From: Candidatus Equimonas faecalis
Lineage (GTDB): Bacteria > Bacteroidota > Bacteroidia > Bacteroidales > Bacteroidaceae
Assembly: GCA_018066245.1 (NCBI GenBank)
Contig: JAGHRT010000031.1
Location: 1 to 64,000 of the forward strand
Direction of reading: 5' to 3'
Length of the DNA stretch: 64,000 bases
A model generated the notes under the pieces. The model was not told the DNA's origin. It did no database searches and saw nothing but the letters and a program-made list of their open reading frames with translations. The translations under genes were made by a program, and so were the position numbers. Positions within the stretch are counted from its first letter, which is position 1, and each line of letters begins with the position of its first letter. Below are positions 3,152 through 63,893 of the stretch, piece by piece.

Positions 3152-3260
3152 GTTTTTCCTACTCCCTATGAGAGTTTGCACTACTGTATAGGATAGTTTT
3201 TCCTACTCCCTATGAGAGTTCGCACTACTCTATATGGCAGTTTTTCCCATTCCATGAGAG
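3152..3260 (+). repeat. Brick array: 44-bp period, 2.5 units
   Basis: Segments beginning GTTTTTCCTACTCCCTATGA start at 3152, 3196 and (degenerate) 3240, an exact 44-bp period. Each 44-bp unit splits into two 22-bp halves, the second resembling GCACTACTGTATAGGATA. This is the GTTTTTCCTACTCTATAG type of the window-wide 21-22-bp repeat family. Confidence 0.85.
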
Positions 3261-3401
3261 CGTTCGTGCTTTTCCATACGGCCCTTCCGCCTGCCCTGCA
3301 AATCGGCTCGAAGCGCCCCAGCCATAAGCCCTGCTACACCTGCGCCCCGACACATTTTCGGCGGCAGATTTTCGGCAAGGGCCTGTTTTCGCAAAATTAT
3401 C

Positions 3402-3432
3402 TTGGCGGTACGGATAAAATTCCGTAAATTTG
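3402..3432 (+). promoter_or_regulatory. Promoter of the DUF3472 gene
   Basis: TTG (3402-3404), a 20-bp spacer, then TAAATTTG (3425-3432): a perfect Bacteroidetes housekeeping promoter. It rules out an upstream ATG at 3430, which would lie inside the -7 element, and leaves a leader of about 95 nt. Confidence 0.8.
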
Positions 3433-3534
3433 CACAGATTTCTGCTTACATCCTGTTCCTTGCAGGCGCAGCAATCTTTCCGAACACCCACGACATATCA
3501 CATTCAAACTACCAAACATTCAATTCTTCTAACA

Positions 3535-7392: not shown

Positions 7393-7464
7393 GCGCCAAC
7401 AACTTCCCCTTCTGAACACAGCCATCAAAGGCACGGCACAGATGATGCCCCCGCGCTGACAGCA

Positions 7465-7506
7465 AGGCGTGGCTACCCTATCTTCAAAGAGACGGTAGCC
7501 ACGCCT
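7465..7506 (+). terminator. Terminator-like hairpin after the DUF3472 gene
   Basis: A 13-bp perfect stem (AGGCGTGGCTACC at 7465-7477, complement at 7494-7506) with a 16-nt loop. Only a weak T-rich tail follows, so termination is likely but not certain. Confidence 0.6.
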
Positions 7507-7653
7507 ACGTTTACACCCACTCCGGCATGAAGCTTCGCCCTACCACGACCGCCATTTAGAGCAACAAGGGATATTTCACTCTTCTTAAACAGCCCTCCCC
7601 GCCCCCTTGTGGGAGGAATTTTGGCCTTTCCCCCGTGTTTTTCGCATATTTAT

Positions 7654-7684
7654 TTGGTAGTTGGCGTAAAAAGCCCTATCTTTG
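7654..7684 (+). promoter_or_regulatory. Promoter of the zinc-ribbon secreted-protein gene
   Basis: TTG at 7654-7656, a 20-bp spacer and TATCTTTG at 7677-7684 form a perfect TTG-N20-TAnnTTTG promoter, 113 bp before the start codon at 7798. Confidence 0.8.
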
Positions 7685-7797
7685 CGCAATCAAACACGTG
7701 CGCGTCCTTACTTACACAATAAATATACGTACACCCGCGCATAACACTCCATAGCACAATTTCAATTCACTTTACTAACCCAAAACCTCTTCAATCT

Positions 7798-10700
7798 ATG
7801 AAAAAGTTTATTACTCTTCTGCTGCTGTGTCTCACAGGCATGGCAGCGTGGGCGGCAGACATTGAGAACGTAGCGTTCAAGAATGATGCCGGTATGTACT
7901 TGAATGCAGCGGTGGCGAACGATGCAGTCAGCGTGGGAAGCGCCTCGCAGAGTTTTTCCATCAAGGCTGTGAGCGGTGAGACCAATGCTTACCAGCTCTA
8001 CTGCAACGACATCAGCCGTTGGATTAACAGTGGTACGAGTGGCTATCTGTCCTCTGCCACAACTCAGACCAATGCACGCTACTTCTATTTCTACAAGGTG
8101 ACGATGTCCAACGCTTCGCTCGTAATGGCCAGTCCCGAGGAAACTCCCGAGGTAGGCCAGAAGTATGTCATCGTCGTGAAGAACACCAACACCGAGTATG
8201 CAGGCTACTACGCCATCTATGGCCAGCTGGCCAATGGTAAGACGAACCGTCTGGACGTTGTCAATAAGCTTAACGACGAGCTTCCCTCTACGATTATGCT
8301 GACCTCAACCGCCCAGACCTCCAACGGTACCGCCGACCTCACCAAGGTGGTGTGGACTGTTGAGCAGCTCGCAGCTCCCGAACCTCCCGTTGACGTAACG
8401 AAGACTTACTACCTGTACGACAAGGGTATCAGCCAGTATGTTGTAATACCCTCTGCTACCAATGCAAATATTACTCCCTCCACCACCGATAAGACTGCTG
8501 TGAAGTTTGCAGCCGTATCAGGAGGTTTCAGTATTCAGGATGCAAATACTGGCAACTATATTGGTATCGACACTTCTTGGAATACCATAAGCACCACCAC
8601 GGCCCAGCCTTGGGCTATTGCCAAGGTTGAAGGCGGTATCACCATCAAAAACACTTCCGGTTCTTATGCCGGCAAATGGTTTGGTGGCCAGAGCGGTAAG
8701 ACGAAGTTCTACAACAACAACGACAATCCTGTCGTCTTCAGCCTTGAAGAAGTAGCTCCTGCCACGAAAGAATGCCCCCAGTGCAGTGAAGCTGTGGACA
8801 TCGACGCTACAGTATGCCCGAAATGCGGATATGTTTTCGAGTCCGCTCCTGCCAGTGCTGTGACTAACCTGAATGCCACTTTCAGCAACACTGGCACCTC
8901 CTGGACCGGTGTGAATATCTCCGTTGCAGCCACCGATGCTGATGGCCATGCCGTCAGCGGCGTTACGGCTACCGTAACGGGCAACACGGCTCCCAAGACC
9001 GTTTCCCAGCCCGGCACGAACTGCATCGTGATAAACAAGAACAGTAAGGACATGAGCAATGAGCCCTTGAACTTTACCATTTCCGGCCTGCCCGCAGGTT
9101 CCAAGTTCAACCGCATCAACCTGCCCATGTATGCCATCAACGGTAGCGGCTCTTTCCAGCAGAATGCCGGTCAGAGCGACGTGAACTTCAAGGTAACCGT
9201 CATTGAAGGCGGCAGCACCCTTTATGAGAACACCATCACCAACTTCAACGTGCCCCAGATACAGAAGGGCAACCTCAACGACCTCCTCGTTTATGAGTGC
9301 GGCGAAGACATCGTTACCAATGGCGGTGACGTTCAGGTGAACTTCTCCATGAGCAAGGGTTCCGTCAACAATGGTATGTGCATGGCTTTCCAGAGCCTGA
9401 AACTCTACTACCTCAGCACTGTTGAATACACCGTGAACGTCACGGGTGCCACTGGCGGTGGCGTAACCTATGGCGGCAACACCTACAACAATGGTGGAAA
9501 GATTTCGGCTACTGGCCTCACTGTGGCTGAACTTACTGCCATTCCCGTAGAAGCCTATACCTGTAATATCACTATCGACGGCACTGTCATCAACGTAGTT
9601 TATACGCTCAACGACATCAACGCTTCCATCAATTACACTCCTCTCACCACCTCTTGTTGGAGCGTAATGAGCAATCCGCCCGCAGACCTCCTTACCGATT
9701 ACGAAGCTACCGACCTCTATGATATCGAAAAGACCTATGTAATCGAAGAAGCCGGTAAACTGCAGTCCACCTTTGTCTATACAAGTGGCAGCCACCGTAT
9801 CGACATCGTCGGTGTTGACGTTGTAGATGGCAGCGGTACTGTTGTGGCTTCCGACTATCACTTCGGCTATAGCGGCGGTCAGAAAGTTGATAATGTTTAT
9901 ACTGTAAAAATCCCCGCAGGCACCTACACCGTACGTTACATTGCTACGGCTCATTCTGCTGACGGTTCCAACACCAACACCAATGGCCATATTGACAACG
10001 TATTCACTGCTGGCGAAATTGACTGGAATGGTCTTGAGGCTGCCATCACCACTGCCAATAGCTATCCCGTTGGTCATGGCCTCGGCCAGTACTCTTGGAT
10101 TGAAGAAGGTGCGGACTACACCGACGACTGGGACAGCACAATATCTTCCTACGAACAGATTCTGGAAGCTCGCGAAGGCGATGCCGATTATGTTGATTTC
10201 CTGATTGACCTCCTCAATACAGCAATTTCCAATCTCCAGCTCAACATGCCCAAGGCCGGCACGTTCCTCCGCGTGAAGGGTGCAGCCTCCGGCAACTACA
10301 TTGCAGGCGACAATTCAATATCCAACGGCCGCGCTGCCATGACTGCCGAAAAGGATGCCTCCAGCATTCTCTACTACACTGAGAATAACGAACTCATCGG
10401 CTACCAGTCCGGTCTCGGTTTCATCAACACGCACAGCCGCGCCGCAGTCGGCAATACCTTCGAGCACCACAGCTTCTCTGCCAGCAACTATGGCAACAAA
10501 GGCGCTTACACCATCCTGTCCAATTACGGCGGCAGCAAGGTATTATATGACGGCAGCACCGACATCAACCGCAACAGCGCCGCCAACAGCGTGAACTGCG
10601 CTTGGTATCTCGAAGAAGTTACCGAACTCCCCGTAACCATAACCACTGCCGGCTACGCCACGCTCTATGCTCCCGTGGACCTCACCGTTCCCACCGGCGT

Positions 10701-11157
10701 GGAGGCTTACAGCATAACGGAGGCCAAGGACGAATACCTCACCCCCTCTGAACTGGCTACCATCCCCGCCAACACGGGCGTCGTGCTCAAAGCTGCCGCT
10801 GGCACCTACAACTTCGCCATCGCCGAAACCGCAGGCAGCGGTACGAGCCTCCTCGACGGCACTTGCGCCACCATCGCCTCCGCTGAGGCCGACGGCAACT
10901 ACGTATTCTCCATCGTTGGCGGCAATCCCGGCTTCTACAAGTTCGCAGGCACCGAGCTCAAGGGCTTCAAGGCTTACTACAAGCCCGCCGTGGCCCACAT
11001 CAACGGTTTCTCCATCGACTTCGGCGGTCAGATCGTAGGCGTAAGCACCGTGATGAGCGCTACCAACCTCAAGGCCGGCTATGACATTCAGGGCCGCCGC
11101 ATCAACAAGATGCAGAAGGGCATCAACATCCTGAACGGCCAGAAGATTATCAAGTAA
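7798..11157 (+). CDS. Large secreted protein with internal zinc ribbon and sorting-like tail
   Basis: Exported protein of 1119 residues with signal peptide MKKFITLLLLCLTGMAAWAA. The N-terminal third has two ricin/lectin-like blocks (for example YYLYDKGISQYVVI, NTGNYIGIDTSW). A zinc ribbon follows with cysteines at 326, 329, 340 and 343 (CPQC...CPKCGYVF), a motif more usual in cytoplasmic proteins. Beta-sandwich segments follow, then another carbohydrate-binding-like block (GNYIAGDNSISNGRAAM). The last residues, AGYDIQGRRINKMQKGINIL, form the tail shared with other exported proteins here. A tiny peptide gene follows after 31 bp. The family is not recognised; a surface or secreted glycan-binding role is inferred. 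Confidence 0.75.
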   Translation: MKKFITLLLLCLTGMAAWAADIENVAFKNDAGMYLNAAVANDAVSVGSASQSFSIKAVSGETNAYQLYCNDISRWINSGTSGYLSSATTQTNARYFYFYKVTMSNASLVMASPEETPEVGQKYVIVVKNTNTEYAGYYAIYGQLANGKTNRLDVVNKLNDELPSTIMLTSTAQTSNGTADLTKVVWTVEQLAAPEPPVDVTKTYYLYDKGISQYVVIPSATNANITPSTTDKTAVKFAAVSGGFSIQDANTGNYIGIDTSWNTISTTTAQPWAIAKVEGGITIKNTSGSYAGKWFGGQSGKTKFYNNNDNPVVFSLEEVAPATKECPQCSEAVDIDATVCPKCGYVFESAPASAVTNLNATFSNTGTSWTGVNISVAATDADGHAVSGVTATVTGNTAPKTVSQPGTNCIVINKNSKDMSNEPLNFTISGLPAGSKFNRINLPMYAINGSGSFQQNAGQSDVNFKVTVIEGGSTLYENTITNFNVPQIQKGNLNDLLVYECGEDIVTNGGDVQVNFSMSKGSVNNGMCMAFQSLKLYYLSTVEYTVNVTGATGGGVTYGGNTYNNGGKISATGLTVAELTAIPVEAYTCNITIDGTVINVVYTLNDINASINYTPLTTSCWSVMSNPPADLLTDYEATDLYDIEKTYVIEEAGKLQSTFVYTSGSHRIDIVGVDVVDGSGTVVASDYHFGYSGGQKVDNVYTVKIPAGTYTVRYIATAHSADGSNTNTNGHIDNVFTAGEIDWNGLEAAITTANSYPVGHGLGQYSWIEEGADYTDDWDSTISSYEQILEAREGDADYVDFLIDLLNTAISNLQLNMPKAGTFLRVKGAASGNYIAGDNSISNGRAAMTAEKDASSILYYTENNELIGYQSGLGFINTHSRAAVGNTFEHHSFSASNYGNKGAYTILSNYGGSKVLYDGSTDINRNSAANSVNCAWYLEEVTELPVTITTAGYATLYAPVDLTVPTGVEAYSITEAKDEYLTPSELATIPANTGVVLKAAAGTYNFAIAETAGSGTSLLDGTCATIASAEADGNYVFSIVGGNPGFYKFAGTELKGFKAYYKPAVAHINGFSIDFGGQIVGVSTVMSATNLKAGYDIQGRRINKMQKGINILNGQKIIK

Positions 11158-11188
11158 CTCCATTTGCCAATTTACCAAATTGCTCCTT

Positions 11189-11380
11189 ATGAAAAAGTAT
11201 ATCATTCCCGCAGTGGACGTTACTGCTATGCACGTTGAAAACACCGTTATGACGACCAGCTTCACCGTTGGTTCCGACGACATAGTCGTTGGCGGCGCTG
11301 GCGACCAATCCGATGAGCATATCGGCCAGCTCACCAATGGCTGGAGCTGCGAAAACTGGACAACGAGCACCGACGAATAA
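11189..11380 (+). CDS. Small MKKxYxxP-type peptide, 63 residues
   Basis: Short protein starting MKKYIIPAVDVTAMHVENTV and ending in the acidic NWTTSTDE. There is no hydrophobic signal peptide. The ATG at 11189 is preferred over an in-frame TTG at 11180 because the protein then begins MKKY. It lies 31 bp after a large secreted-protein gene and directly before a terminator, so it is probably the last gene of that transcript. A second peptide of the same design (M-K/R-K-x-Y-x-x-P start, W...TDE end) lies at 33696-33881, also directly after a large secreted protein. Function unknown. Confidence 0.7.
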   Translation: MKKYIIPAVDVTAMHVENTVMTTSFTVGSDDIVVGGAGDQSDEHIGQLTNGWSCENWTTSTDE

Positions 11381-11400
11381 TCCCCACACTCTCCGATAGA

Positions 11401-11439
11401 CAGGCGGTCGCACAGTGATGTGCGGCCGCCTGCTGTTTT
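11401..11439 (+). terminator. Strong intrinsic terminator
   Basis: A 14-bp stem (11401-11414 with 11419-11432, one G-T pair), loop GTGA, followed by CTGTTTT. It closes the transcript carrying the zinc-ribbon protein and the small peptide. Confidence 0.85.
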
Positions 11440-11529
11440 AGACCCTCTAAATCTCCCTTAAAAGGAGACTTCCCCACACTTCCAGAGAGAGTGAACAGTT
11501 AGAGAGTGAACAATGAGGGCGGGAAGAGT

Positions 11530-11632
11530 GTTGGTTGTCGCACCTGCGACCCTGCGGCAGAGCGACCGTAGGGAGCGCCGCCGTAGGGAGATGGCCCCCA
11601 CATGGTAGGATGACGCGCCATGACGCACCCAT
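11530..11632 (+). repeat. 103-bp dispersed repeat, copy 2
   Basis: Ungapped counterpart, in inverted orientation, of 304-406. Adjacent sequence CGTGCGTAAATA also occurs near copy 1 (about 137-148). Confidence 0.8.
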
Positions 11633-11738
11633 TACTGGGGCCGTAGGCGGACATCCACGCGCGTGCGTAAATATAATATGATAGAAGCGGCTTTTCGCTC
11701 CATTTCTATCCACTTCCATTAAATAATGCCGCCGTAAT

Positions 11739-11769
11739 TTGGCCATTTCCCTATTTGTTCGTATATTTG
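11739..11769 (+). promoter_or_regulatory. Promoter with long leader before the PD-(D/E)XK-like gene
   Basis: TTG (11739-11741), 20 bp, TATATTTG (11762-11769). The next coding start is at 12086, so the leader would be about 310 nt. Confidence 0.7.
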
Positions 11770-11880
11770 CCCCGCAAACGTAAAGCGCGTTTGACAAGAA
11801 GGCGTTCCACGCTTTATCCTTTAAATCGAAAACGGCAAAATTTCATCTACTGAAGGATAGAGGGTATGTAACGCTCACCT

Positions 11881-11944
11881 GTATGTATTTTGCATACGGC
11901 TAACCACGCCGAGTAGCAATTGCATATCGGCGTGGGGTTGCTAC
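11881..11944 (+). promoter_or_regulatory. Candidate structured leader with two interleaved stems
   Basis: Stem A pairs 11904-11912 (CCACGCCGA) with 11927-11935. Stem B pairs 11913-11919 (GTAGCAA) with 11938-11944. The arms are interleaved, so A and B probably form as alternatives. A small hairpin GTATG...CATAC (11881-11897) precedes them. This looks like a regulatory leader, but no known riboswitch class is recognised. Confidence 0.4.
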
Positions 11945-12085
11945 ATTCTTATTCATTTCAGTAATGGTGTTTGCCGATACCAGATTTAAGATGAGTAAGG
12001 ACAGGTCCTCGCGCATTCTTGTATTAATCACCTTTTATACATTAAAAAAGGCCGAGTCGGGGGATCTGTAGGTACCAAACACATT

Positions 12086-12658
12086 ATGGCACAACTATCC
12101 ATTATGTCGCTGCAGCAACGTATGGAAGAGATTGTAAGCACTTCCTACAGGTTGCTGTGCCAAAGGATTGCCTGCCGCAGCATTCGTGCGTCAAGCGAGG
12201 CTGCCCTGCAACTGCACTTTGGCACCATTCTCAAAGACGTAGGTTCTCTCTATGAGTTCTGGCCTACAAGCAAGTTCTCCATCGATTTGGAGAAACAATT
12301 CACGGGAATCAAGACGTCCAAGTCGAACGGCAAGGCCCGCTGCGACATCTTTCTGACTTTGGAGAACCAGAAAGAGAGCGTCTGCGCGGCCATTGAACTC
12401 AAGTACTTCCCCAAGTCGGAGGGCGAGACCACCACGGACAACCGTTTCGCCATCCTTGAAGACATTGAGAACATTGAGCACTACAAGGCTGCTGGAGGCC
12501 CGATGAACGGCTATTCCATCGTGTTCACCACCAATCCCAACTATGCCGATCCCAATACGCGCTCCGGCATCAACATTGGCGAGGGCCAGACCATCACAGG
12601 CAAGGTCGAATCGTGCCGCTTTGCTGAAGTGACCCCAAAATCTTTTATTCACACTTAA
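12086..12658 (+). CDS. PD-(D/E)XK nuclease-like hypothetical protein
   Basis: Protein of 190 residues with no signal peptide. Residues 86-107 read CDIFL...CAAIELKYF, so D87, E104 and K106 match the D...ExK core of the PD-(D/E)XK nuclease fold. That core is used by restriction enzymes, repair nucleases and some defence proteins. The N-terminal half is helical, and the C-terminus ends soon after the core. No partner methyltransferase or helicase is visible, so substrate and role are unknown. It lies at the head of a less GC-rich accessory stretch behind a 310-nt leader and 13 bp before a lipoprotein gene that may be co-transcribed. Confidence 0.6.
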   Translation: MAQLSIMSLQQRMEEIVSTSYRLLCQRIACRSIRASSEAALQLHFGTILKDVGSLYEFWPTSKFSIDLEKQFTGIKTSKSNGKARCDIFLTLENQKESVCAAIELKYFPKSEGETTTDNRFAILEDIENIEHYKAAGGPMNGYSIVFTTNPNYADPNTRSGINIGEGQTITGKVESCRFAEVTPKSFIHT

Positions 12659-12670
12659 ATCTTAGAAGTC

Positions 12671-13366
12671 ATGAAAAGGAAACAAGTATTTAAGCATGCT
12701 ACGATGCTCATCTGTATGCTGATGGGCTTGGCTATGGCTGTGTCGTGCAGCAAGGACGACGATGACGGAGGCGGAAGCAGCGGAAGCGGAAATTCTGACA
12801 ATTACTCCCAATATGTGGGAAAATGGTCTGGTTCGGCAACAAGCAGCACTGGCGGCACATGGGGGCTAATCGTGCAACTCTATGCCAACAAAACCGCCGA
12901 CTTCAAACTCATACTCATCGGAGGGGGAAGTGTACAAACCGTGGAGAACACGACAGGCGAGAAGGTGGTGTATGATGAAAACTCCAAGACCATCTACATC
13001 CATTCGGAAGACGACCTGTACAATGTCCTTCGGGTCGTTTCCATCTCTGGCAACAACATGGTGCTGGATTTCATCGACTGCACTTTCAACATGGAACGCA
13101 CATCGGGGTCAGGAGACGATCCTGGAGGAGGCACGGAAACAGGCAAGCGCTGCACCCTCTGTGGAGGCTCAGGCACTTGCTCCAACGTGAATGCCCTCCA
13201 AAACTACTATTGCTACGGTTCGGGCGAATGCAGATGGTGCATTGAAGGCATCATCTACTGGGCTGGCACAGAACGCATTTGCGACCACTGCAACGGCACG
13301 AACACGTGCGAATACTGTCACGGTTCAGGTAAATGTTCACGTTGCGGTGGAGACGGCAGGATGTAA
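12671..13366 (+). CDS. Lipoprotein with DnaJ-like CxxCxG cysteine repeats
   Basis: Protein of 231 residues with a lipoprotein signal (lipobox-like AMAVSC, then SKDDDD and a Gly/Ser linker). The middle, about 45-150, looks like a small lipocalin-type beta-barrel common in Bacteroidete lipoproteins. The C-terminal 75 residues hold CTLCGGSG, CRWC, CDHCNG, CEYCHGSG and CSRCGGDG, the pattern of the DnaJ zinc-binding central domain. Finding this motif on an exported lipoprotein is unusual; it may bind metal or be disulfide-bonded. It sits 13 bp after the nuclease-like gene and 35 bp before another lipoprotein gene, so the three may form an operon. Confidence 0.65.
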   Translation: MKRKQVFKHATMLICMLMGLAMAVSCSKDDDDGGGSSGSGNSDNYSQYVGKWSGSATSSTGGTWGLIVQLYANKTADFKLILIGGGSVQTVENTTGEKVVYDENSKTIYIHSEDDLYNVLRVVSISGNNMVLDFIDCTFNMERTSGSGDDPGGGTETGKRCTLCGGSGTCSNVNALQNYYCYGSGECRWCIEGIIYWAGTERICDHCNGTNTCEYCHGSGKCSRCGGDGRM

Positions 13367-13401
13367 AAACTCCCCTTTATTCATTTAAAACCTTTACACA
13401 C

Positions 13402-14418: not shown

Positions 14419-14437
14419 CACTTCTTTAACAACAAAC

Positions 14438-14476
14438 TAGGGGCTTGGGTCGGATTTGACTCAAGCCCCCTTGTTT
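14438..14476 (+). terminator. Intrinsic terminator after lipoprotein operon
   Basis: A 12-bp stem with one G-T pair (14440-14451 and 14458-14469, arm GGGGCTTGGGTC) followed by CCTTGTTTTA. Confidence 0.8.
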
Positions 14477-14911: not shown

Positions 14912-14919
14912 TACTTTTG
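14889..14919 (+). promoter_or_regulatory. Promoter of the AbiE module
   Basis: TTG (14889-14891), 20 bp, TACTTTTG (14912-14919). The inferred transcript starts just before the ATG at 14944, leaving a short leader. Confidence 0.75.
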
Positions 14920-18662: not shown

Positions 18663-18714
18663 GAGACTTTTCACGGGTCTGTACGGCAGGGGAAACTGTC
18701 GTACAGGATAGGGA

Positions 18715-18756
18715 AAATTAGTCCGCCGGCAGGAAAAACTGTCGGCGGACTAATTT
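18715..18756. terminator. Bidirectional hairpin made of two inverted repeat units
   Basis: A perfect 14-bp stem (18715-18728 AAATTAGTCCGCCG, complement 18743-18756) with a 14-nt loop, between two convergent genes. Both arms are copies of the GTCGGCGGACTAA type of the dispersed repeat family. The T/A-rich ends on both strands suit bidirectional termination. Confidence 0.7.
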
Positions 18757-20706: not shown

Positions 20707-20838
20707 ACCGCCGGCGGACTAAGTTCTCCAGCCGTACAGGGCAGCTTTTCCTACTGTATGGAGTAGTTCGCACTACTGTATAGAGTAGTTTTCCCTACTG
20801 TATGAAGTAATTTTTCCTACTGTGTGGGGCAGTTCTTT
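20707..20838 (+). repeat. Brick array with 22-bp period
   Basis: The segment CTACTGTAT-G/A-(G/A)AG recurs with starts at 20751, 20773, 20795 and 20817, exactly 22 bp apart. A single GGCGGACTAA-type unit lies just upstream (about 20707-20722). Confidence 0.85.
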
Positions 20839-28360: not shown

Positions 28361-28440
28361 GCAGGGCAAAACTGTCGGCGGACTAAGACGAACTGCCGGC
28401 GGACTAATTTCAACTACTCCGCCGATAGTTTTTCCTCCTT
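28361..28440 (+). repeat. Brick array: two direct units plus one inverted
   Basis: CGGCGGACTAA units start at 28376 and 28397, 21 bp apart. An inverted unit at 28419-28433 pairs with 28368-28381 (AAAACTGTCGGCGG, one mismatch) and ends in a T-run, so the array could serve as a second terminator. Confidence 0.8.
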
Positions 28441-34029: not shown

Positions 34030-34244
34030 CGGCGGCTTACGGAAAACTGTCGGCGGACTAATTTTTACTGCCGTATAGGATAGGGAGAAGCATCTGGTTG
34101 CCGCACTCGCGGCTCGTATAGGATAGGGAGAAGCATCTGGTTGCCGCACTTGCGGCTCGTATAGGATAGAGCGAAGAATTTGGTTGCCGCACTCGCGGCT
34201 CGTATAGGATAGGGAGAAGAATTTGGTTGCCGCACTTGCGGCTC
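34030..34244 (+). repeat. Brick array: GGCGGACTAA unit then four 43-bp tandem copies
   Basis: A single GTCGGCGGACTAATTTTT unit (about 34046-34066) is followed by four tandem 43-bp units (34073-34115, 34116-34158, 34159-34201, 34202-34244). Each is a 22-bp part (GTATAGGATAGGGAGAAG...) plus a 21-bp part (GGTTGCCGCACTCGCGGCTC) whose GCCGC...GCGGC forms a small hairpin. Confidence 0.9.
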
Positions 34245-34254
34245 GGTGGCCTAT

Positions 34255-36591: not shown

Positions 36592-36672
36592 TGTTGAAAT
36601 TAGTCTATAGGGTTGTTGAAATTAGTCTATATGACAGTTTTTCGCAGTCCGCCGATAGTTTTCCGTAGTCCT
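36592..36672 (-). repeat. Brick array upstream of GH20 / at end of menA
   Basis: TTGTTGAAATTAGTCTATA occurs at 36592 and 36613, 21 bp apart. GGCGGACT-type units (in inverted orientation, AGTCCGCCGATAGTTTTCC) follow up to the menA stop codon. Confidence 0.8.
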
Positions 36673-37651: not shown

Positions 37652-37850
37652 CGAAAAAACAACCGAAAAGCCGCACTCCGCATTGCAAAAAAACGACTTT
37701 TCCCCGCCCGGGCGGCGCAAAACGGCACGAAAAAGGGGCTGGATGGCAGTAAGGCGACTCCTCTCCGGCTTCCCCGCAGGGGAAGACTTTCTTCCCGCAG
37801 AGCAGCCGGAACAGCCGGTGCTTCCGCAAAACTCAGCCTATAGGCCAGGC

Positions 37851-37980
37851 AAAACTATCGGCGGACTAATTTCTCCTATCGGCGGACTACGCAAAACTAT
37901 CGGCGGACTAATTTTCGCGGCTCGTATGGGATAGGAGAAGACTTCGGGGGGCTTGTGTCAATTAGTCCGCCGAAAACTTG
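37851..37980 (+). repeat. Brick array with three direct and one inverted GGCGGACTAA units
   Basis: AAAACTATCGGCGGACTAAT starts at 37851 and 37893, 42 bp (two units) apart, with a related unit between them. A GCGGCTCGTATGGGATAGGA segment follows, then an inverted unit ATTAGTCCGCCGAAAAC (37961-37977). The last unit touches the -33 TTG of the next promoter. Confidence 0.85.
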
Positions 37981-44540: not shown

Positions 44541-44719
44541 AAATCTGGATTGGTACGCAAAGTTACAACCTTTTTCCCACTCCTGCCGCATCGTTCGCCG
44601 ACAAAATGCAGTGCAGTAAGGTTTTTTATGATTTGTCCGCCGACCGGCAGCCGGCATTTAAGGATTGTTAAGACTTAGTCCTGACGGGAATATGCACTCC
44701 CGTGGCGGCTCTCAAAAGC

Positions 44720-44819
44720 GTCCTATAGAGTAGGAAAAACCAGTCCGCCGACAGTTTTTCCTACTCTATAGGACAGTTTTTCCTACTTTATAGGACAGTT
44801 TTCTTTACTCTATAGGACG
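44720..44819. repeat. Brick array with perfect 21-bp hairpin and three 22-bp tandem units
   Basis: Arm 44720-44740 (TCCTATAGAGTAGGAAAAAC core) is the perfect reverse complement of 44754-44774. The 13-nt loop consists of an AGTCCGCCGAC-type unit. From 44754 on, GTTTTTCCTACTCTATAGGA-type units repeat at 44754, 44776 and 44798 (22 bp). It lies downstream of the GH20 gene on the minus strand and may terminate it. Confidence 0.9.
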
Positions 44820-44898
44820 GTTGAAACCTTCTTGCAGGCTGGCTTTCCGTGTCGCGTAGCGGAGAAGGGGCTCTCGGCAGGGCGCATTGTGCCAGTCT

Positions 44899-46929
44899 CT
44901 ATTTCACGGCCACCTCGTCGGTAAAGAGCCATCCGCCTGAGGCGGGCGCGTTGGCACGGATGCGGAGGTAGCGGGCACGGGCCTTACCTTTGACCGTGAA
45001 ATCCAGCACGTCGGGGGTGGGCGTGCGGCGGTAGGGATGGCTGACGCTGCCCAGGTCCGTCCAGGTCAGCCCGTCGGTGCTGGTGCTCACCCTGTAGTGT
45101 TCAGGATAGTAGATTTCCGCACAGCAGTCCTGCCGGAAGGTGGTCGTAACCTCCCGCAGCTTCGTGGCGGTGCCCAGATCCAGCGTGATGTCCAGCACGT
45201 CGTCGGCCTTGTCGCTCCGTATGAAGCCCTGCCACCGCCCGTCGCCGAAGGCCCAGCCCCCGCAGTAGCCGTCCACGAGGGTGCCGTCGCCGCTGCCGCT
45301 GTATTGCGGGGCAGGCGGGGTGGCGTAGCTCACGCGTGCGCCCACGGCCTTGTGCCTGCTCGGCCTGTCCGTGCCCTTGCGCTCCCCCTGCTCCGTGCGG
45401 AGGTTGAAGGCGTTCACGCCGGCTGCCCGCAGGCGGTCGGTCTCGCGTGCGGCCCTCTCGCGGAAGTCGGCGCGGCCACTTGTGCCCCAGCCGATTTCGG
45501 CCACGGCCAGCAGGCGGGGATAGAGCATGTACTCCTGGTGGGCGGCTGTCGGTACGTATTCTGTCCAGAGGTTGCCCTGCACGCCCACGATGTGGGCGGC
45601 CTCGGCGGGCGAGAGCCCCTTCAGGGGGTCGAAGCTGTAGGCTTTTTCCAGCGGGAGGTAGGAGCCGAAGCCTTCGGGCTGCGTGGGCGGCTCGTCCTGG
45701 TAGGCGTCGAAGTAGCAGTAGGCTCCCGGCGACATCACCACGTCCAGTCCCAGCCGCGCGGCCTCCGCCGCTTTTTCCACGCCGCGCCACACCATCACGG
45801 TGGTGCCCGTGTGGAGGCCCTGGTCGATGATTTCGTCCCAGCCCACCAGCCGCCGTCCGTGCTGTTCGAGGAAGCGTCCCATGTGGGCGATGAGTTGCGT
45901 CTGCAGGTCGCGGAAGTCGGTGCCGCCCGCTTCCCGCAGTTTCTGCCGGCAGAGGGGGCAGTTCGGCCAGTCGGCTCGTCCGGCCTCGTCGCCGCCCACG
46001 TGGATGTAGTCGGAGGGGAACACGTCCATCACCTCCCTGAGCACGTTTTCCAGAAAGGTAAGGGTGGCGGGATTGCCCGGGCAGAAGTCGGCGGCTCCTT
46101 CGGCGTGGGTGCAGCTTAGTTCGGGGTAGGCGTGCAGAACCTCCTCGCTGTGGCCCGGCATCTCTATTTCGGGCACCACGGTGATGCCCCTGGCGGCGGC
46201 GTAGGCCACCAGGCAGCGCATCTCGTCCTGCGTGTAGAAGCCGCCGTAGCCTTGCAGGGAGTCGGCGGTGCTGAGGTAGCGGCGGTCGCGCCCAATCCAC
46301 CACGCGTTCCAGTCGGACTGCGTGCGATAGGCGGCCTGCTGGGTGAGACGCGGGTAACGCTTGATTTCCATGCGCCAGCCCGCCGCGTCGGTGAGGTGCA
46401 GGTGGAGGCGGTTGATTTTGTAGGAGGCGAGTATGTCCACCTGCTTCAGCAGGTGCGGGAGGGGGAAGAAGTGGCGGCTCACGTCTATCATCGCGCCGCG
46501 CCATCTGTATTGGGGCCAGTCCTCCACCTCGCAGCAGCGATACACGCCCTGCCTGACTTGCAGCTGCCGCAGCGTGGCTTCGGCGTGGAGGCGTGAGGCG
46601 GAGTCGGTCAGCTCCACGCGCACGCCGTCCTGGGCGGCATGTATGCGGTAGTAGCCTTCGGGCGTGGCGTGTCCTTCCTCTGCGCTTTCGGCCAGTGGGA
46701 GGAAGGTGATGCCGGTCGCCTTGACGGTGCCTTTGCCCCAAGTGATTTTCTGCGGGTAGGGCAGCAGGTTCTGGGCTCGGGCCGCGAGGGGGAGCGCGAG
46801 TAGGAGGAACAGCGCCGTGAGTAGGCGATGCGTTGTCTGGGTCTTCCGGAAGTTTCCCTCTATCCGCCTGCGGTGTATTCCTGTCTGCCCGAAGGGGGAA
46901 AGTTTCGTGGGGATGGCGTTTTCTGTCAT
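44899..46929 (-). CDS. GH20 beta-N-acetylhexosaminidase with F5/8C-like C-terminus
   Basis: Protein of 676 residues. The hydrophobic signal (LLTALFLLLALPLAARAQ) is preceded by about 35 polar residues. No later in-frame ATG exists before the catalytic domain, so either the N-region is long or a non-ATG start is used. The GH20 barrel spans about 140-490: INRLHLHLTDAAGWRMEIKR and catalytic D314-E315 in HVGGDEAG are intact. The C-terminal 140 residues (DVLDITLDLGTATKLREVTT, RYLRIRANAP) form a discoidin-like sugar-binding domain. Unlike the GH20 at 34316, it lacks the DLQGRR tail. Confidence 0.9.
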   Translation of the reverse strand: MTENAIPTKLSPFGQTGIHRRRIEGNFRKTQTTHRLLTALFLLLALPLAARAQNLLPYPQKITWGKGTVKATGITFLPLAESAEEGHATPEGYYRIHAAQDGVRVELTDSASRLHAEATLRQLQVRQGVYRCCEVEDWPQYRWRGAMIDVSRHFFPLPHLLKQVDILASYKINRLHLHLTDAAGWRMEIKRYPRLTQQAAYRTQSDWNAWWIGRDRRYLSTADSLQGYGGFYTQDEMRCLVAYAAARGITVVPEIEMPGHSEEVLHAYPELSCTHAEGAADFCPGNPATLTFLENVLREVMDVFPSDYIHVGGDEAGRADWPNCPLCRQKLREAGGTDFRDLQTQLIAHMGRFLEQHGRRLVGWDEIIDQGLHTGTTVMVWRGVEKAAEAARLGLDVVMSPGAYCYFDAYQDEPPTQPEGFGSYLPLEKAYSFDPLKGLSPAEAAHIVGVQGNLWTEYVPTAAHQEYMLYPRLLAVAEIGWGTSGRADFRERAARETDRLRAAGVNAFNLRTEQGERKGTDRPSRHKAVGARVSYATPPAPQYSGSGDGTLVDGYCGGWAFGDGRWQGFIRSDKADDVLDITLDLGTATKLREVTTTFRQDCCAEIYYPEHYRVSTSTDGLTWTDLGSVSHPYRRTPTPDVLDFTVKGKARARYLRIRANAPASGGWLFTDEVAVK

Positions 46930-46943
46930 ATAGAGTAATGTTT

Positions 46944-46986
46944 ATTAGTCCGCCGACAGTGAAAATTAGTCCGCCGACAGTTTTGC
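46944..46986 (-). repeat. Two GGCGGACTAA bricks, 21 bp apart, inside the end of a glycosyltransferase gene
   Basis: TTAGTCCGCCGACAGT begins at 46945 and 46966. On the minus strand the unit starting near 46986 is read as codons K-L-S-A-D-stop, so it encodes the end of the upstream gene. Confidence 0.85.
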
Positions 46987-48069: not shown

Positions 48070-49552
48070 AGAGCTCCTCTTGTGATGCGGTGAAGCCGCC
48101 CAGGCGGACGGACGAAAGGGTGTTGGGTGCGCCTGCGCCGACCACGCGTATGTAGTTGTCGGTCCAGCCTGCGCCGTTCTCCCACAGCACGGGGCGCACC
48201 TGCCCCCGGTGGGCCTCGTAGAAGGCCAGTCGCTTCGTCTCGCTCAGGGCGATGAGCTCCTGGGAGCGGGCGTGCTTCTCGGCGGCGGACACGGTGTGGG
48301 GAATCTCCAAGGCCTTGGTGCCGGGCCTCTCGGAGTAGGGAAAGACGTGCAGCTGCTGCACGTTGAGGCTGGCGAGGAAGTCGCGCGACTGTCGGAAGCA
48401 TTCCTCCGTCTCGCCACGGGCTCCCACTATCACATCGACGCCGATGAAGGCGTGCGGCATGGTCTGGCGTATGCGTTCGATGCGGTGGCGGAACAGGGCG
48501 GTGTCGTAGTGCCGCCGCATGAGGCGGAGCACTTCGTCGCTCCCGCTTTGCAGGGGAATGTGGAAGTGGGGCATGAAGGCTCGGCTTTGGGCGCAGAAAT
48601 CAATGATTTCGTCGGAGAGGAGGTTGGGTTCGATGCTGGAGATGCGGTAGCGGGCAATGCCCTCCACCGCGTCGAGGGCCTGGACCAGCTGGAAAAAGGT
48701 CTCGCCCGTGGTGCGTCCGAAGTCGCCTATGTTCACGCCGGTCAGCACCACCTCGCGCCCGCCCTGCCGCGCCACCTCCTCGGCCTGGGCCACAAGGGAG
48801 GCGATGCTGCCGTTGCGCGAGCGCCCGCGTGCCAGCGGAATAGTACAATAGGTGCAGAAGTAGTTGCAACCGTCCTGCACCTTCAGGAAATAGCGCGTGC
48901 GGTTGCCCTTGCTGCAGGAGGGCACGAAGGGCCAGTCGCCCCGCCGCTCCGTCCTGCCGCCGGCATCCGCCGCAGGGGCTGTGGGGACGGCGCTGTCTGC
49001 CCCGCCGACAGCCGCAGGTGCCGCAATAGGGCCTTCTCTTAGTCCGCCGAGAGTTTGATTTAGTCCGCCGAGAGTTTCATTTAGTCCGCCGACAGTTTTT
49101 CCTATCCCTACGATAGTTTCACCTCCTCTCGGGGCGGGGCAAGTTTCCCCTACGGAGGCTGCGCAGAAGTCTGGGGTGCGGCTGAAATGCTCCCGTATGC
49201 GGGCCACCACTTCCCCCTTCTCGCGCTGCGCCATCACATAGGTAACGCCCTCGATGCCGCCCACCTCGCCGGGCTTCAGCTGCGCGTAGCAGCCCGTAAC
49301 CACGGTGCAGGCGCCGGGATTCTGCCGGCAAATGCGACGAATGCCCTGCCGGCATTTCTGGTCGGCCTCGCCCGTAACAGAACAGGTGTTCACAATCACG
49401 ATATCCGCCGGCTTGTCGCCACTGGCATCCGTAACGCCTTCACTCACAAGTAGGTCGCGGATTGTCGCCGTTTCCGCAAAGTTCAGTTTACAGCCGAGAG
49501 TGAGCGTCCTGAGCGTGAGCCCTTCAAGGCTCAGTCCATTAGAATTTTCCAT
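48059..49552 (-). CDS. mtaB: tRNA t6A37 methylthiotransferase MtaB with in-frame repeat insertion
   Basis: Radical-SAM enzyme of 497 residues that methylthiolates t6A at tRNA position 37. The N-terminal [4Fe-4S] domain has C21, C57 and C88; the radical-SAM motif CNYFCTYC has C229, C233 and C236; a TRAM-like end follows (GQVRPVLWE). Between the two iron-sulfur domains there is an extra, low-complexity segment (about 130-205), so the protein is longer than usual MtaB (about 430-440). Residues 151-173 (KTVGGLNETLGGLNQTLGGL) are three 21-bp dispersed repeat units translated in frame. The core is intact and presumably active. tsaB, acting earlier in the same modification, lies at 58764. Confidence 0.93.
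   Translation of the reverse strand: MENSNGLSLEGLTLRTLTLGCKLNFAETATIRDLLVSEGVTDASGDKPADIVIVNTCSVTGEADQKCRQGIRRICRQNPGACTVVTGCYAQLKPGEVGGIEGVTYVMAQREKGEVVARIREHFSRTPDFCAASVGETCPAPRGGETIVGIGKTVGGLNETLGGLNQTLGGLREGPIAAPAAVGGADSAVPTAPAADAGGRTERRGDWPFVPSCSKGNRTRYFLKVQDGCNYFCTYCTIPLARGRSRNGSIASLVAQAEEVARQGGREVVLTGVNIGDFGRTTGETFFQLVQALDAVEGIARYRISSIEPNLLSDEIIDFCAQSRAFMPHFHIPLQSGSDEVLRLMRRHYDTALFRHRIERIRQTMPHAFIGVDVIVGARGETEECFRQSRDFLASLNVQQLHVFPYSERPGTKALEIPHTVSAAEKHARSQELIALSETKRLAFYEAHRGQVRPVLWENGAGWTDNYIRVVGAGAPNTLSSVRLGGFTASQEELYAE
49034..49102 (-). repeat. Three 21-bp bricks in frame within mtaB
   Basis: TTTAGTCCGCCGAGAGTTT recurs with a 21-bp period, identical in type to the intergenic units. 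The reading frame used avoids the TAA in the unit (AAA ACT GTC GGC GGA CTA AAT). Confidence 0.9.
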
Positions 49553-53004: not shown

Positions 53005-53092
53005 AAAACTGTCGTATAGGGTAGTGCGAACTACTCCATAGAGTAATCAAAACTGCCGTATAGAGTGGTGAAAACCATCCTATACGGCAGTT
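53005..53092 (+). repeat. Brick array with perfect hairpin after alaS
   Basis: Contains AAAACTGTCGTATAGGGTAG and related units. AACTGCCGTATAG (53051-53063) is perfectly complementary to 53080-53092, which fits termination of alaS. Confidence 0.85.
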
Positions 53093-56895: not shown

Positions 56896-57903
56896 ATGAA
56901 TCTTTCCAGCTATCTATTTGGTGTTTATGCCGATTCCTATGAGCAGTATCCAGACGACTATACGAGCAAAATTCTCAAACGGTTTTCCGACCTCTCTCAT
57001 CCTCCCGCCCAGCTCATCATCCATAGGGAGGGGGATTTGATGTACTACGGCTACACTCGGATGCTTGGCGAGGAGCATCATGTGGGCTTATGTGCAGTGC
57101 TGAATGGTGTAGCAATAACTGATGTTCAGCGGCTGTTTGGGGCGTTTGAGCGTGTGGTTGAGACTATGGCCAGTAGGCAGTCGTTCATCTGTGTCAAGAA
57201 GAAAGGCGAGCTATGCTCCAAGCTTTGCCAACTGCGTGCGGATAGGGCAGAGGTTACCCACACTATGGAGCTGTTGAAGTCCTGTTTGGAGAATATGGAT
57301 GATGCCACTGTGAATCTGCCAGCCATGGATACAGAAACGGTCAAAGACGATGTACACCGCTTCTGTGCTGAAGACGATGAAGCGGAGATATTGAAATATA
57401 GCCTTGCTCCCGGTTATACTGTTGTCTGGAAACAAGACAAGGTTGTCCGGAAACGAAACAAGATTGTCCAGAAATTAGACAAGGCCAAATCGCTGCTAAT
57501 GGAGCCCTTCCGGAAACAAGACAAGGTTGTCCAGAAACAGGATGTGCCCGAGGCGGCGCCAATGGAGTTTTTCCAGAAACAAGACAAGGTTGTCCAGAAA
57601 CAGGATGCGCCCGAGGCGGCGCTAATGGAGTTCTTCCGGAAACAAGACAAGGTTGTCCAGAAGCCAGATGCGTTCGAGGCGGCGCTAATGGAGTTCCTCC
57701 GGAAACAAGATAAGGTTGTCCAGAAACAGGATGCGCCCGAGGCGGCGCTAATGGAGCTCCTCCGAAAACAAGATAAAGTTGTCCAGAAACAGGATGCGCC
57801 CAAGGCGGCGCTAATGGAGTCCTTCCTGAAACAAGACAAGGCTGTCCAGAAGCCAGATGCGTTCGAGGCGGCGCTAAGGGAGTTCTTCCAAAGTTTGCTA
57901 TAG
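56896..57903 (+). CDS. Protein with six 21-residue C-terminal tandem repeats
   Basis: Protein of 335 residues. The N-terminal domain (about 1-170, MNLSSYLFGVYADSYEQYPD) is mixed alpha/beta and unrecognised. From about 176 there is a degenerate lysine-rich lead-in. Residues 206-331 are then six near-identical units of the form RKQDKVVQKQDAPEAALMEF, encoded by 63-bp tandem repeats (57511-57888). The units are charged and amphipathic, so an extended helix or coiled coil is likely. Near-identity at DNA level indicates recent expansion. Last gene of the four-gene operon; a terminator-like brick hairpin follows. Confidence 0.65.
   Translation: MNLSSYLFGVYADSYEQYPDDYTSKILKRFSDLSHPPAQLIIHREGDLMYYGYTRMLGEEHHVGLCAVLNGVAITDVQRLFGAFERVVETMASRQSFICVKKKGELCSKLCQLRADRAEVTHTMELLKSCLENMDDATVNLPAMDTETVKDDVHRFCAEDDEAEILKYSLAPGYTVVWKQDKVVRKRNKIVQKLDKAKSLLMEPFRKQDKVVQKQDVPEAAPMEFFQKQDKVVQKQDAPEAALMEFFRKQDKVVQKPDAFEAALMEFLRKQDKVVQKQDAPEAALMELLRKQDKVVQKQDAPKAALMESFLKQDKAVQKPDAFEAALREFFQSLL
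57511..57888 (+). repeat. Six 63-bp tandem repeats (coding)
   Basis: The unit begins CGGAAACAAGACAAGGTTGT, period exactly 63 bp. Copies 3 and 6 share a variant (KPDAFEAAL), copies 1, 2, 4 and 5 the other (KQD(A/V)P(E/K)AA), suggesting duplication of multi-unit blocks. Confidence 0.95.
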
Positions 57904-61232: not shown

Positions 61233-61287
61233 AGCCTCTTGTCCTTGGAGAAGCCGGGACGTCCGGAGCTTCCGGAATATCCGGCCT

Positions 61288-61468
61288 ATACGATAGGAAA
61301 AACTCTCGGCGGACTACGAAAAACTCTCGGCGGACTAATTTTCCCTGTCGTATAGGATAGAGGAAAGAAGTTGGTTGCCGCACCTGCGGCTCGGCGGACT
61401 AATTTTCCCTGTCGTATAGGATAGAGGAAAGAAGTTGGTTGCCGCATCTGCGGCTCGGCGGACTACGA
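61288..61468 (+). repeat. Brick array with 21-bp and 64-bp periods
   Basis: GAAAAACTCTCGGCGGACTA starts at 61298 and 61319 (21 bp). From 61329, a 64-bp unit (CGGCGGACTAATTTTCCCTG, then GTATAGGATAGAGGAAAG, then GGTTGCCGCACCTGCGGCT) repeats at 61393 and begins again at 61457. Each 64-bp unit equals 21 + 22 + 21 bp of the three unit types. Confidence 0.9.
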
Positions 61469-61503: not shown

Positions 61504-63120
61504 ATGATGAAAAAAATCACCCTCCTTCTGCTGGGCCTTGCAGCTATGACCACGGTCCCGGCAAAGGTGAAGACCGTCAGCGTGAGCCGGCCTGCCTTCG
61601 CCTACTCCTTCCAGAACGCCCTCGTCCCCACCGAGGTGGTGGCCAGCGACACCGCCACCGTCGTCAGCTTCCGTGCCAATGCCATGGGGTCGTGGCGCAT
61701 TGGCCCCCAGGCCTGCCTGAAGGTGGGCAATCAGACCCTCCCCTTGCGCCACGGCACCGCCAGCCAGGTGAAGCCTGGCCGTGAGCAGGACGAGCCCACC
61801 GTCGTGCCCTTCCAGCCCGATTCCACCTATCTCGGCTACTACGCAGCCTTCCAACAGGAAGGTGCCAAGGTTACCGTGGGCCTGACCCTCGTGTTCCCGC
61901 CCCTGCCCAAGCGCACCAAGGTGTTCGCCTTCGATGAAGGAATAGACGACCCGCAGAAATTCTGCGTAACGGGCATCCGCCTCGACGGCAAGACCTATCC
62001 CGACCGCCTCAACCTGAACGACGCGCAGTCCACCGTGCCCCTCGCCTGGACAGCCCCTGCCGACGGCAAGGCCAAGCCCTGCCGCATCCGCGTGCGGGTG
62101 GTGGGCAGCGAGTTGCCGGCCGGCCTCACCTTCACCCCGGGCTTCTACACCGTGAGCGAGGCCCCCTTCCACAAATCCCTTACGGAACCCACTTGGGAAC
62201 CTGCCGCAGACGGCACCCCCGGCGGCACCGTAACACTCAGCAGTGCCGTGCCCGTGGGCTGTCTGGTGTATCTGCGCAACAGCCGCAACGACCTGTACGG
62301 CGTGCCCTGCCTGCCGGGTGAGGACCTCACCCTTACGGTGGACTACAACGCCCTGACGCGTCTGGAAAACACCCCGGGCGCCACTCCCTCCACCGTGCCC
62401 TACTACACCCTTACCGATGCCGCAGGCCGTCAGCTCAATCCGGGCGTGGAAGGCCCCGACGGCTGGGTGGACCTTGCCAAGGCCAAGACAGCCGACCTCG
62501 TACACTGCGCCTCCAACCCCGAGGTGGCCCGTCTCCGACTGGCCGAGCGCGATGCAGCCGAGGCCCTGTTCCAGCGCATCGGAGCCCTGGAGGACGTAAG
62601 CCCCGCCGAGGTGGCCGCCACCGCCGAAGCCTACCGCGAGACCGTGGAGACGGCCTACACCGAAGCCCTCACCATCAAGCAGAAAAGGGAGGCCGGCGAA
62701 GGCGGCAAGGTGTGCGAAGCCCCCGACGTGCCGATGAAGGACATGATCAAGGCCATAGCCGCCCGCTACGCAGGCAAAGTGGTGTATATCGACCTGTGGG
62801 CCACGTGGTGCGCCCCTTGCCGCATGGGCATCGAGGCGATGAAGCCCCACCACGCCGACTTTGCGCCCGACGACGTGCAGTTCGTTTACATCACCAACGA
62901 GAGCAGTCCGATGGACAAGTGGAACAAGATGCTTCTCGACATGCCCGGCGACCACTACCGCCTGCCCTCGTTTGAAGGCATGGAGCCCGCCGTGCAAGGC
63001 ATACCCCGCTACCTCATCCTCGACCGCGCCGGCAACGTCGTGTTCGACAAGGCAGGCTTCGGCCCCGGCATGGAAAAGGAATTTTGCAAGACGATACAAG
63101 AAACCATCGACAAGAAATGA
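61504..63120 (+). CDS. Exported TlpA-like thioredoxin-fold protein
   Basis: Protein of 538 residues, signal MMKKITLLLLGLAAMTTVPA. Residues about 25-390 contain beta-rich domains of unknown type and a helical linker. The C-terminal 145 residues form a TlpA-like thioredoxin domain with VVYIDLWATWCAPCRMGIEA, active-site cysteines C436 and C439 (WCAPC), and a cis-proline region VQGIPRYLILD. It probably acts as a periplasmic thiol-disulfide oxidoreductase. The stop overlaps the start of the next gene (ATGA). Confidence 0.85.
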   Translation: MMKKITLLLLGLAAMTTVPAKVKTVSVSRPAFAYSFQNALVPTEVVASDTATVVSFRANAMGSWRIGPQACLKVGNQTLPLRHGTASQVKPGREQDEPTVVPFQPDSTYLGYYAAFQQEGAKVTVGLTLVFPPLPKRTKVFAFDEGIDDPQKFCVTGIRLDGKTYPDRLNLNDAQSTVPLAWTAPADGKAKPCRIRVRVVGSELPAGLTFTPGFYTVSEAPFHKSLTEPTWEPAADGTPGGTVTLSSAVPVGCLVYLRNSRNDLYGVPCLPGEDLTLTVDYNALTRLENTPGATPSTVPYYTLTDAAGRQLNPGVEGPDGWVDLAKAKTADLVHCASNPEVARLRLAERDAAEALFQRIGALEDVSPAEVAATAEAYRETVETAYTEALTIKQKREAGEGGKVCEAPDVPMKDMIKAIAARYAGKVVYIDLWATWCAPCRMGIEAMKPHHADFAPDDVQFVYITNESSPMDKWNKMLLDMPGDHYRLPSFEGMEPAVQGIPRYLILDRAGNVVFDKAGFGPGMEKEFCKTIQETIDKK

Positions 63121-63779
63121 TCGCATCCCACAGGCGTGCGCTATTGCTGACGCTCCTGCTGTGTGTGCTGTCGGGCCTCGGGCCGGCAGCACGCGCCCAG
63201 CAGCAACAGGAACTCCGCCGCAGCAAAATCCCCGTGGTCTTTCCCGAATTTCGGGACGCACGCATCAATCAGACCTTCGGCAGGCACACCACGGCTCGGG
63301 TGAACATCTTTTTGGACGACGGGGCACTCTATTTCCTCGATGAGCAGGAACAGGTGCGCCGGGCCTACGTGGACAACGTGCTGAGCGTGGACATCGACAG
63401 CGTGCGCTACATGAAGGTGGACACCCTCTTCGGACAGTTGCTGGCCGAGCAGAACTACAACTGCCTGGTGCGCGTTACGCTCATCGACAAGAAGCTCTAC
63501 GACAGCGAGGCGCAGGCCCTGAACGACATGCGCATCAACGGCGCAGGATTCTTCAAGGAGAGCATACTCGAAATGGAGGCCGAGCACGAAGCGGGCTACC
63601 CCCTGAAAGACGTGTTCTACTTCATCGTGAAAGGCCGCCCCGTGCTGGCTCGTGAGTCCTATGTAAAGAAGCTCATAGCGCCCGACTACAAGCAGGCCTT
63701 CAAGACCCTCATGGCCGATCGCTGGTGGAGCTGGCGCGACCCCGAAAGCCTCAAGCGCCTCCTGATGTACTTCCCCTGA
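63117..63779 (+). CDS. Exported hypothetical protein coupled to thioredoxin-fold gene
   Basis: Protein of 220 residues with a signal peptide (MIASHRRALLLTLLLCVLSG...ARAQ), cleaved before QQQELRRSK. The remainder is mixed alpha/beta (INQTFGRHTTARVNIFLDDG, YFLDEQEQVRRAYVDNVLSV) with few cysteines (one in the mature part). The ATGA overlap with the upstream gene implies translational coupling, so it may be a substrate or partner of the thioredoxin-fold protein. No family recognised. Confidence 0.75.
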   Translation: MIASHRRALLLTLLLCVLSGLGPAARAQQQQELRRSKIPVVFPEFRDARINQTFGRHTTARVNIFLDDGALYFLDEQEQVRRAYVDNVLSVDIDSVRYMKVDTLFGQLLAEQNYNCLVRVTLIDKKLYDSEAQALNDMRINGAGFFKESILEMEAEHEAGYPLKDVFYFIVKGRPVLARESYVKKLIAPDYKQAFKTLMADRWWSWRDPESLKRLLMYFP

Positions 63780-63782
63780 GAG

Positions 63783-63893
63783 CAGTCCGCCAGAACCCTC
63801 CAAACTCCCCTATACGACCGTTTTTCCTACTCTATACAATAGTTCGCACGACTCTATAGGATAGGAAAAACGATTGTATAGAGTAGGAAAAAC
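63783..63893. repeat. Brick array with perfect 21-bp inverted repeat
   Basis: Arm 63820-63840 (GTTTTTCCTACTCTATACAA core) is the exact reverse complement of 63873-63893. Between them lies GCACGACTCTATAGGATAGG, another unit of the same type. Confidence 0.9.

Follow-up and report, generated by a model that had tools for sequence, protein, structure and literature searches.

The window analysed here is the whole stretch of DNA from base 1 to base 64000 of one contig (contig 20) in a draft genome of 2.59 Mb, which comprises 62 contigs, is 89.8% complete and belongs to the genus of the Alloprevotella group. Its proteins of housekeeping families include PNPase, L13 and alanyl-tRNA synthetase, the RNase P RNA and the L13 leader are the sole Rfam matches at the gathering score, a tRNA search of the window found none, and a plasmid search with the array at 44700-44830 gave zero matches. 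The wider sample to which many of the counts below refer covers 382 kb and consists of the window and a further 17 stretches from this genome, which were picked for matches to one of the two unit types (Z) and are biased in that respect; gene positions are provisional ones from our own gene caller. Two congeners recur in the comparisons: G009, the closest named relative as judged by one protein (83% identity), and G063, whose genome is 68% complete.

An earlier note on this DNA had claimed that modular arrays of short units lie between the genes of the window, and 14 multi-unit arrays are indeed found (Table 1), with the Y, Z and W words of that note all present within about ten bases of the positions it gave. 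Units were located either with a weight matrix, which scores 52 of them in the window, or with a strict unit definition, which yields 23 units and 8 neighbour pairs exactly 6 bp apart; in 100 dinucleotide shuffles of the window the strict definition yields 0.07 units on average (at most 2) and zero 6-bp pairs. One lone weight-matrix match, at 51649 inside alaS, is probably due to chance. Tandem repeats of other kinds are also present. An 85-bp repeat (2.2 copies) at 50130-50313, upstream of alaS, carries words like CTCGCTTATTCGTAACTTT, and sequence resembling it occurs at other places of this genome (L213; C15 near 231 kb), while the 63-bp and 189-bp repeats at 57421-57889, whose lengths are multiples of three, lie within a long open frame (56896-57903).

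Table 1. Multi-unit arrays of the window, with unit types (Y, Z), orientations (+, -) and W hairpins in order along the sequence
Position	Units	Setting and remarks
3152..3261	Five partly decayed Y-type units of 22 bp; two scored by weight matrix	Divergent gap
18696..18753	Y-, Z+, Z-; 6-bp linkers	Convergent gap
20708..20834	Z-, a unit without score, then Y- units every 22 bp	Divergent gap upstream of L13 leader
28372..28428	Z-, Z-, Z+; 6-bp linkers	Rare -+ order
34047..34245	Z-, Y-, followed by four repeats of 43 bp that bear the W hairpin	
36600..36658	Y+, Y+, Z+; 6-bp linkers	Different 22-bp array in orthologous G009 gap
37833..37976	Y+, Z-, Z-, Z-, 6-bp linkers; weak Z+ 50 bp further	Divergent gap
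44718..44820	Y-, Z+, Y+, Y+, Y+; all linkers 6 bp	Gap 358 bp here, 140 bp in G009
46923..46980	Y-, Z+, Z+; 6-bp linkers	Overlaps called ends of two genes
48997..49095	Four Z+ units, the first and second separated by one skipped unit	
53009..53090	Y-, Y-, Y-, Y+; 6-bp linkers	Directly 3' of alaS stop codon
57910..57966	Z+, Z+, Z-; 6-bp linkers	
61281..61465	Y+, Z-, Z-, Y-, W, Y-, W	Gap 271 bp here, 74 bp in G009 (L056)
63805..63893	Y+, Y+, Y+, Y-; 6-bp linkers	

Units of both types share one layout, in which a centre is flanked by two arms of 5 bp. The centre of the Z type has 5 bp (CCGCC/GGCGG), giving a unit of 15 bp, and that of the Y type has 6 bp (STATAS), giving a unit of 16 bp; the arms are of a CTRYY type or a TAGT/ACTA type and are combined in many ways. 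Neighbouring units are separated by a linker which has exactly 6 bp in 227 of the 242 pairs that lie at most 30 bp apart in the 382 kb, and the remaining 15 pairs are 27 or 28 bp apart, which corresponds to one unrecognised unit plus two linkers. The period of the arrays is thus 21 or 22 bp because the centre has 5 or 6 bp while the linker has 6 throughout, and the length locking at about two helical turns per unit which had been proposed for this DNA is borne out. Among the ten pairs 31-100 bp apart, spacings of 48 bp (five pairs, at least one of which spans a W), 50 bp (two) and 71 bp (one) fit two or three missed units, and spacings of 54 bp and 73 bp (one each) do not fit.

The sample holds 362 units in 120 arrays, 99 of which have at least two units. 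An array has at most five units when a cut-off of 30 bp is applied, with four or five scored units in 49 of the 120 and fewer in 71. The mixing of types and of orientations which the earlier note had described is frequent and leaves the register intact: Z and Y units occur together in 49 of the 99 multi-unit arrays, and units of one type occur in both orientations in 44. Changes of orientation between Z units are strongly asymmetric (22 of the 24 are +- and 2 are -+), and those between Y units are even (12 and 13).

Other parts of the earlier description require amendment. TRF reports periods of 43, 44 and 64 bp in addition to 21 and 22, but the spacings of 43 and 64 bp contain W, which creates them. 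W was taken for a third interchangeable unit and is instead a separate GC hairpin, GGTTGCCGCANNTGCGGC, with 35 sites here (at most one mismatch), none in G063 and 2 in G009; together with half-units it forms tandem modules of 42, 43 or 64 bp (window 34072-34245 and 61326-61465; L208). The 42-bp spacing read between 37851 and 37893 is a double step of 21 bp by way of a variant unit (37855/37876/37897), and the pair placed at 36592 and 36613, 21 bp apart, has a spacing of 22 bp, its units starting at 36600 and 36622.

The units are not confined to a few chance arrays. Across the draft genome as a whole there are 105 copies of the Z core STCGGCGGACTA, compared to 2 of its reversed control, and 117 sites of the Y word CTRYYSTATASRRYAG, compared to 0 for its control; by extrapolation there are about 700 units genome-wide. 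Restriction to a few arrays and the absence of 21/22-bp quantisation had been named as the two outcomes that would speak against the proposal, and neither was found. Units lie outside called genes in 305 of 362 cases, although genes make up 86% of the 382 kb. Of the gaps of at least 80 bp, units are present in 18 of the 25 divergent ones, 55 of the 102 co-directional ones and 13 of the 19 convergent ones, rates which are upper estimates because the stretches were picked for Z matches. Unit coverage is 4-10% within 60 bp upstream of starts and peaks at 27% between 60 and 150 bp past stops. We make no claim that transcription sets the orientation: Z units in co-directional gaps are 64 sense to 32 antisense, but counted by arrays the ratio is 35 to 23 with 3 ties; the orientation of Y units has no clear link to transcription. 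Some regions are free of arrays (7.4-16.5 kb and 22.0-27.9 kb of the window; 10-18 kb of L046). Codon-use scores are poor for the genes at 11.2-16.4 kb, and the stretch 7393-16563 is perhaps an acquired island, but those for the genes at 22-28 kb, where 22.0-27.9 kb is array-free as well, are normal.

Within the arrays, the cores recur and the linkers vary. Core positions carry a mean of 1.51 bits in Z and 1.24 bits in Y, compared to 0.43 and 0.38 bits for the linker positions, a contrast which is partly built in because it was by the cores that the units were located. Most arrays have linkers unlike those of other arrays. A run of at least four A or four T is present in 136 of 227 linkers, compared to 23.5 expected from column shuffles, and 78 are A-rich and 84 T-rich. 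If the arrays were neutral satellites generated by replication slippage, then the period of 21-22 bp would be a product of the slippage itself and not of any function. This explanation seems quite improbable, since linkers are far more variable between arrays than cores, with the reservation that units were selected by core, and since the exact register survives changes between Z and Y and between orientations.

The arrays also have a capacity to fold. Fold z-scores on the two strands have means of -3.2 and -3.0 for arrays (n=74, pieces of up to 130 nt), compared to -1.1 and -0.8 for unit-free gaps (n=58, pieces of up to 90 nt), and inverted Z pairs can form stems of 15 bp. No significant covariation was detected between the left and right arms within units, and adjacent inverted units do not exceed unrelated ones in complementarity, though there are three inverted pairs with apparent compensation (GATGG..CCATC; two in L041, one in L047). 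The arrays could accordingly be read as RNA or single-strand DNA hairpins that act as terminators or 3'-end stabilisers, a reading with which the z-scores of about -3 on both strands, the peak in unit density after stops, the 15-bp stems and the three apparently compensated pairs are all consistent. We nevertheless consider it improbable: arm covariation is not significant within or between units, arrays occupy 18 of 25 divergent gaps, and orientation is only weakly tied to transcription for Z (35 sense and 23 antisense arrays, 3 ties) and not clearly for Y.

In the relatives, the length of the repeats is shared far more widely than their sequence. The TAGT-armed Y family has 98 strand hits in G063 and 44 here, compared to 0-4 in each of the other 56 of 58 genomes of the genus, and is shared by two species, not one; strict species-privacy, which 60 relatives examined without G063 had suggested, was overturned by the sharing of units with G063. 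In 212 kb of G063, 25 units (1 in the reversed control) show 14 spacings of 6 bp and 2 of 28, and CGGCA, CGCCG and CCTAGG are among its extra centres. Strict units were found in 0 of 80 loci from relatives. In 79 of these loci (1.43 Mb), TRF gives 151 non-coding rows with periods between 12 and 70 (overlapping rows counted separately), of which 61 have a period of 21 or 22, compared to 20 of 133 coding rows, just 2 of which are at 22; at least one non-coding 21/22-bp row is present in 34 of the 79 loci and absent from 45. Twenty congener stretches (397 kb) contain 18 non-coding rows of period 21 or 22, distributed over 11 of the 20, and at most 2 non-coding rows at every other period from 18 to 41. 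G063 excepted, these 21/22-bp arrays are unrelated in sequence to the Y and Z units. Some are clear palindromes (e.g. L059, L166, L197 and L205) but most are not, and a palindromic consensus was rejected as a universal rule in favour of a tendency: p <= 0.05 is reached by just 22% of 76 non-coding 21/22-bp units, compared to 4% of 28 coding 21/22-bp units, and, at other periods, by 11% of 44 non-coding and 0% of 40 coding units. One uncultured Alloprevotella MAG (L128) has a family of GC-rich 21-bp arrays (ACGGGGCTAAGGCGCGT-like) in six places with varied arm combinations; its sequence is unrelated to the window units and A/T tracts in it are scarce.

A comparison of orthologous gaps shows a gain of length in those with an array. 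Gaps which bear an array are longer than their counterparts in G009 or G063 in 10 of 11 comparisons covering 10 gaps; the median difference in the congener is -187 bp for gaps with an array, compared to +4 for array-free gaps (13 comparisons; Mann-Whitney p = 0.0012). The exception is the gap at 36575-36670, for which the G009 gap measures 343 bp and contains a 22-bp array of a different kind. No strict units were found in the compared congener gaps, even in those of G063, a genome with units at other places. Exact matches between arrays on different contigs reach 63 bp, or three units, and the 4851 pairs of the 99 multi-unit arrays give 74 matches of at least 26 bp (pair and orientation counted, some of them via W). 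Since gaps with arrays are longer than their orthologues and multi-unit segments are shared, the arrays seem to have spread by copying, with segments copied between gaps and also duplicated locally. A 7-mer test of 198 array flanks detected no constant leader or tail; no word occurs in more than 21 flanks, and the words that do recur are unit-like and GC-rich. Four arrays (L033 11176, L040 11534 and 15301, L042 3255) have similar end words of the CTAAGG- or CCAAGG-type followed by a GAAAA linker and CAAGTCC, a resemblance which suggests one composite copied several times.

The main rival to the reading we prefer is that of a selfish or semi-selfish, REP/BIME-like mosaic element, copied into gene gaps by an enzyme or by gene conversion without host function, whose cores are what the copying machinery recognises. 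REP, BIME and REPIN elements, which are accompanied by RAYT transposases, are likewise interspersed palindromic mosaic units in gene gaps, and W resembles a REP hairpin. The shorter congener gaps, the exact stretches shared between contigs, the extrapolated abundance of about 700 units and the rarity or absence of the TAGT-armed Y word in 56 of 57 congeners are all in keeping with such an element. Unlike REP, BIME and REPIN elements, however, the Y and Z units do not co-occur with Y1_Tnp matches and have no long stems inside the unit. The link to a REP-type transposase raised in the earlier note was not borne out for these units, and RAYT/Y1_Tnp was rejected as the partner enzyme because its matches do not track them: this genome has three Y1_Tnp matches, two of which have no strict units within about 1.5 kb while the third has three units about 1.3 kb upstream, and their near flanks, judged by eye, hold other hairpins; in G009, four Y1_Tnp matches go with no Y or Z pattern match; and G063, in a genome 68% complete, has units and one sub-threshold match. 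One G009 W site lies about 160 bp from a Y1_Tnp match (L206), and W itself may be the REP element of a Y1_Tnp gene. The negative outcome of the 7-mer test for a constant leader or tail, in spite of the similar end words of four arrays, and the dissimilarity of linkers between most arrays also tell against the selfish element, which on balance appears unlikely.

The earlier note knew of no described class of length-locked repeats, but one is in print. Subirana and Messeguer (PMC8161180, which cites an earlier J Bacteriol 2020 paper by the same authors) describe, in the part of the article available, tandem repeats of constant size in many bacterial groups, with 20-23 nt, or in other cases 52 nt, and variable, species-specific sequences. 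These repeats are non-coding, share a short characteristic sequence and form several families per species; the authors note the correspondence to two helical turns and discuss nucleoid proteins or small RNAs, leaving the function unexplained. The arrays described here agree with that account in their constant period of 21 or 22 bp, their mostly non-coding location, and a sequence nearly limited to the species (two in this case) combined with a length common to relatives. They differ in being short, since just 49 of 120 reach the limit of at least four repeats per array used for detection in that work, and its available text does not describe two core lengths with one 6-bp linker, in-register mixing or freely combining half-sites. 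Searches of open-licence literature listed no account of the arm, centre and linker grammar. BrickBuilt, a 23-nt minisatellite MITE of Porphyromonas gingivalis (PMC4596501; also PMC5771137), is similar, so far as the accessible portions of those papers extend, in its Bacteroidales host, its short tandem units in gene gaps and its limited host range, but its single type of 23-nt unit is enclosed by a leader, a tail and terminal inverted repeats like those of IS5, whereas no constant ends were detected by 7-mers in the 198 flanks here. The arrays are thus best regarded as a richly organised variant of the constant-size class.

To account for the grammar and the fixed spacing, with variable linkers beside recurrent cores, no detectable half-site covariation and A/T tracts, we tentatively put forward, as a possibility falling somewhat short of probable, that the arrays are sites for a predicted dyad-binding protein, phased at two helical turns and spread by copying. 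Each unit of 15 or 16 bp would be the two-half-site target of a dimeric DNA-binding protein, and the 6-bp linker would hold the units 21-22 bp apart; because this linker fixes a step of two turns, neighbouring dimers would share one face of the helix and be able to cooperate, and the linkers, A- or T-tracts for the most part and recurring in phase, would add curvature. The arrays would then probably act as architectural platforms of a nucleoid or domain type, or as broad regulatory platforms, in gene gaps. Copying of segments between gaps, with fast turnover between species, would complete the scheme, in which the gain in length relative to two congeners, the shared segments and the recurrence of the same length in relatives would all have a place.

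Several observations do not sit easily with the dyad-site proposal. Recognition by a recombinase or transposase would conserve the cores too, and the register can also be inherited through slippage combined with palindrome-centred template switching. On either strand the folding of arrays is better than that of unit-free gaps, three inverted pairs have the look of compensation, a simple dyad does not explain the order of the Z flips (22 to 2), the GC-rich 21-bp arrays of L128 have few A/T tracts, and the spacings of 54 and 73 are unfitted.

Why one length should recur with unrelated sequences in many bacteria is an open question in print (PMC8161180, in the text available). A more speculative extension of the dyad-site proposal, which we regard as rather unlikely, is that the 20-23-bp satellites across bacteria are in general dyad-site arrays for fast-evolving proteins that assemble every two helical turns; if this were true, they would be a bacterial counterpart of the fast-turnover satellites of chromatin or centromeres, with the grammar openly visible in this genome. 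The internal spelling rule of constant-length repeats is readable here as an arm of 5 bp, a centre of 5 or 6, an arm of 5 and a linker of 6. Because the rule is explicit and comes with two core types, both orientations, hundreds of copies, one congener with the units in common and others with different units of equal length, variants of the spacing, the half-sites and the linker are directly testable, and readable rules of this kind make the purpose of such repeats testable as well.
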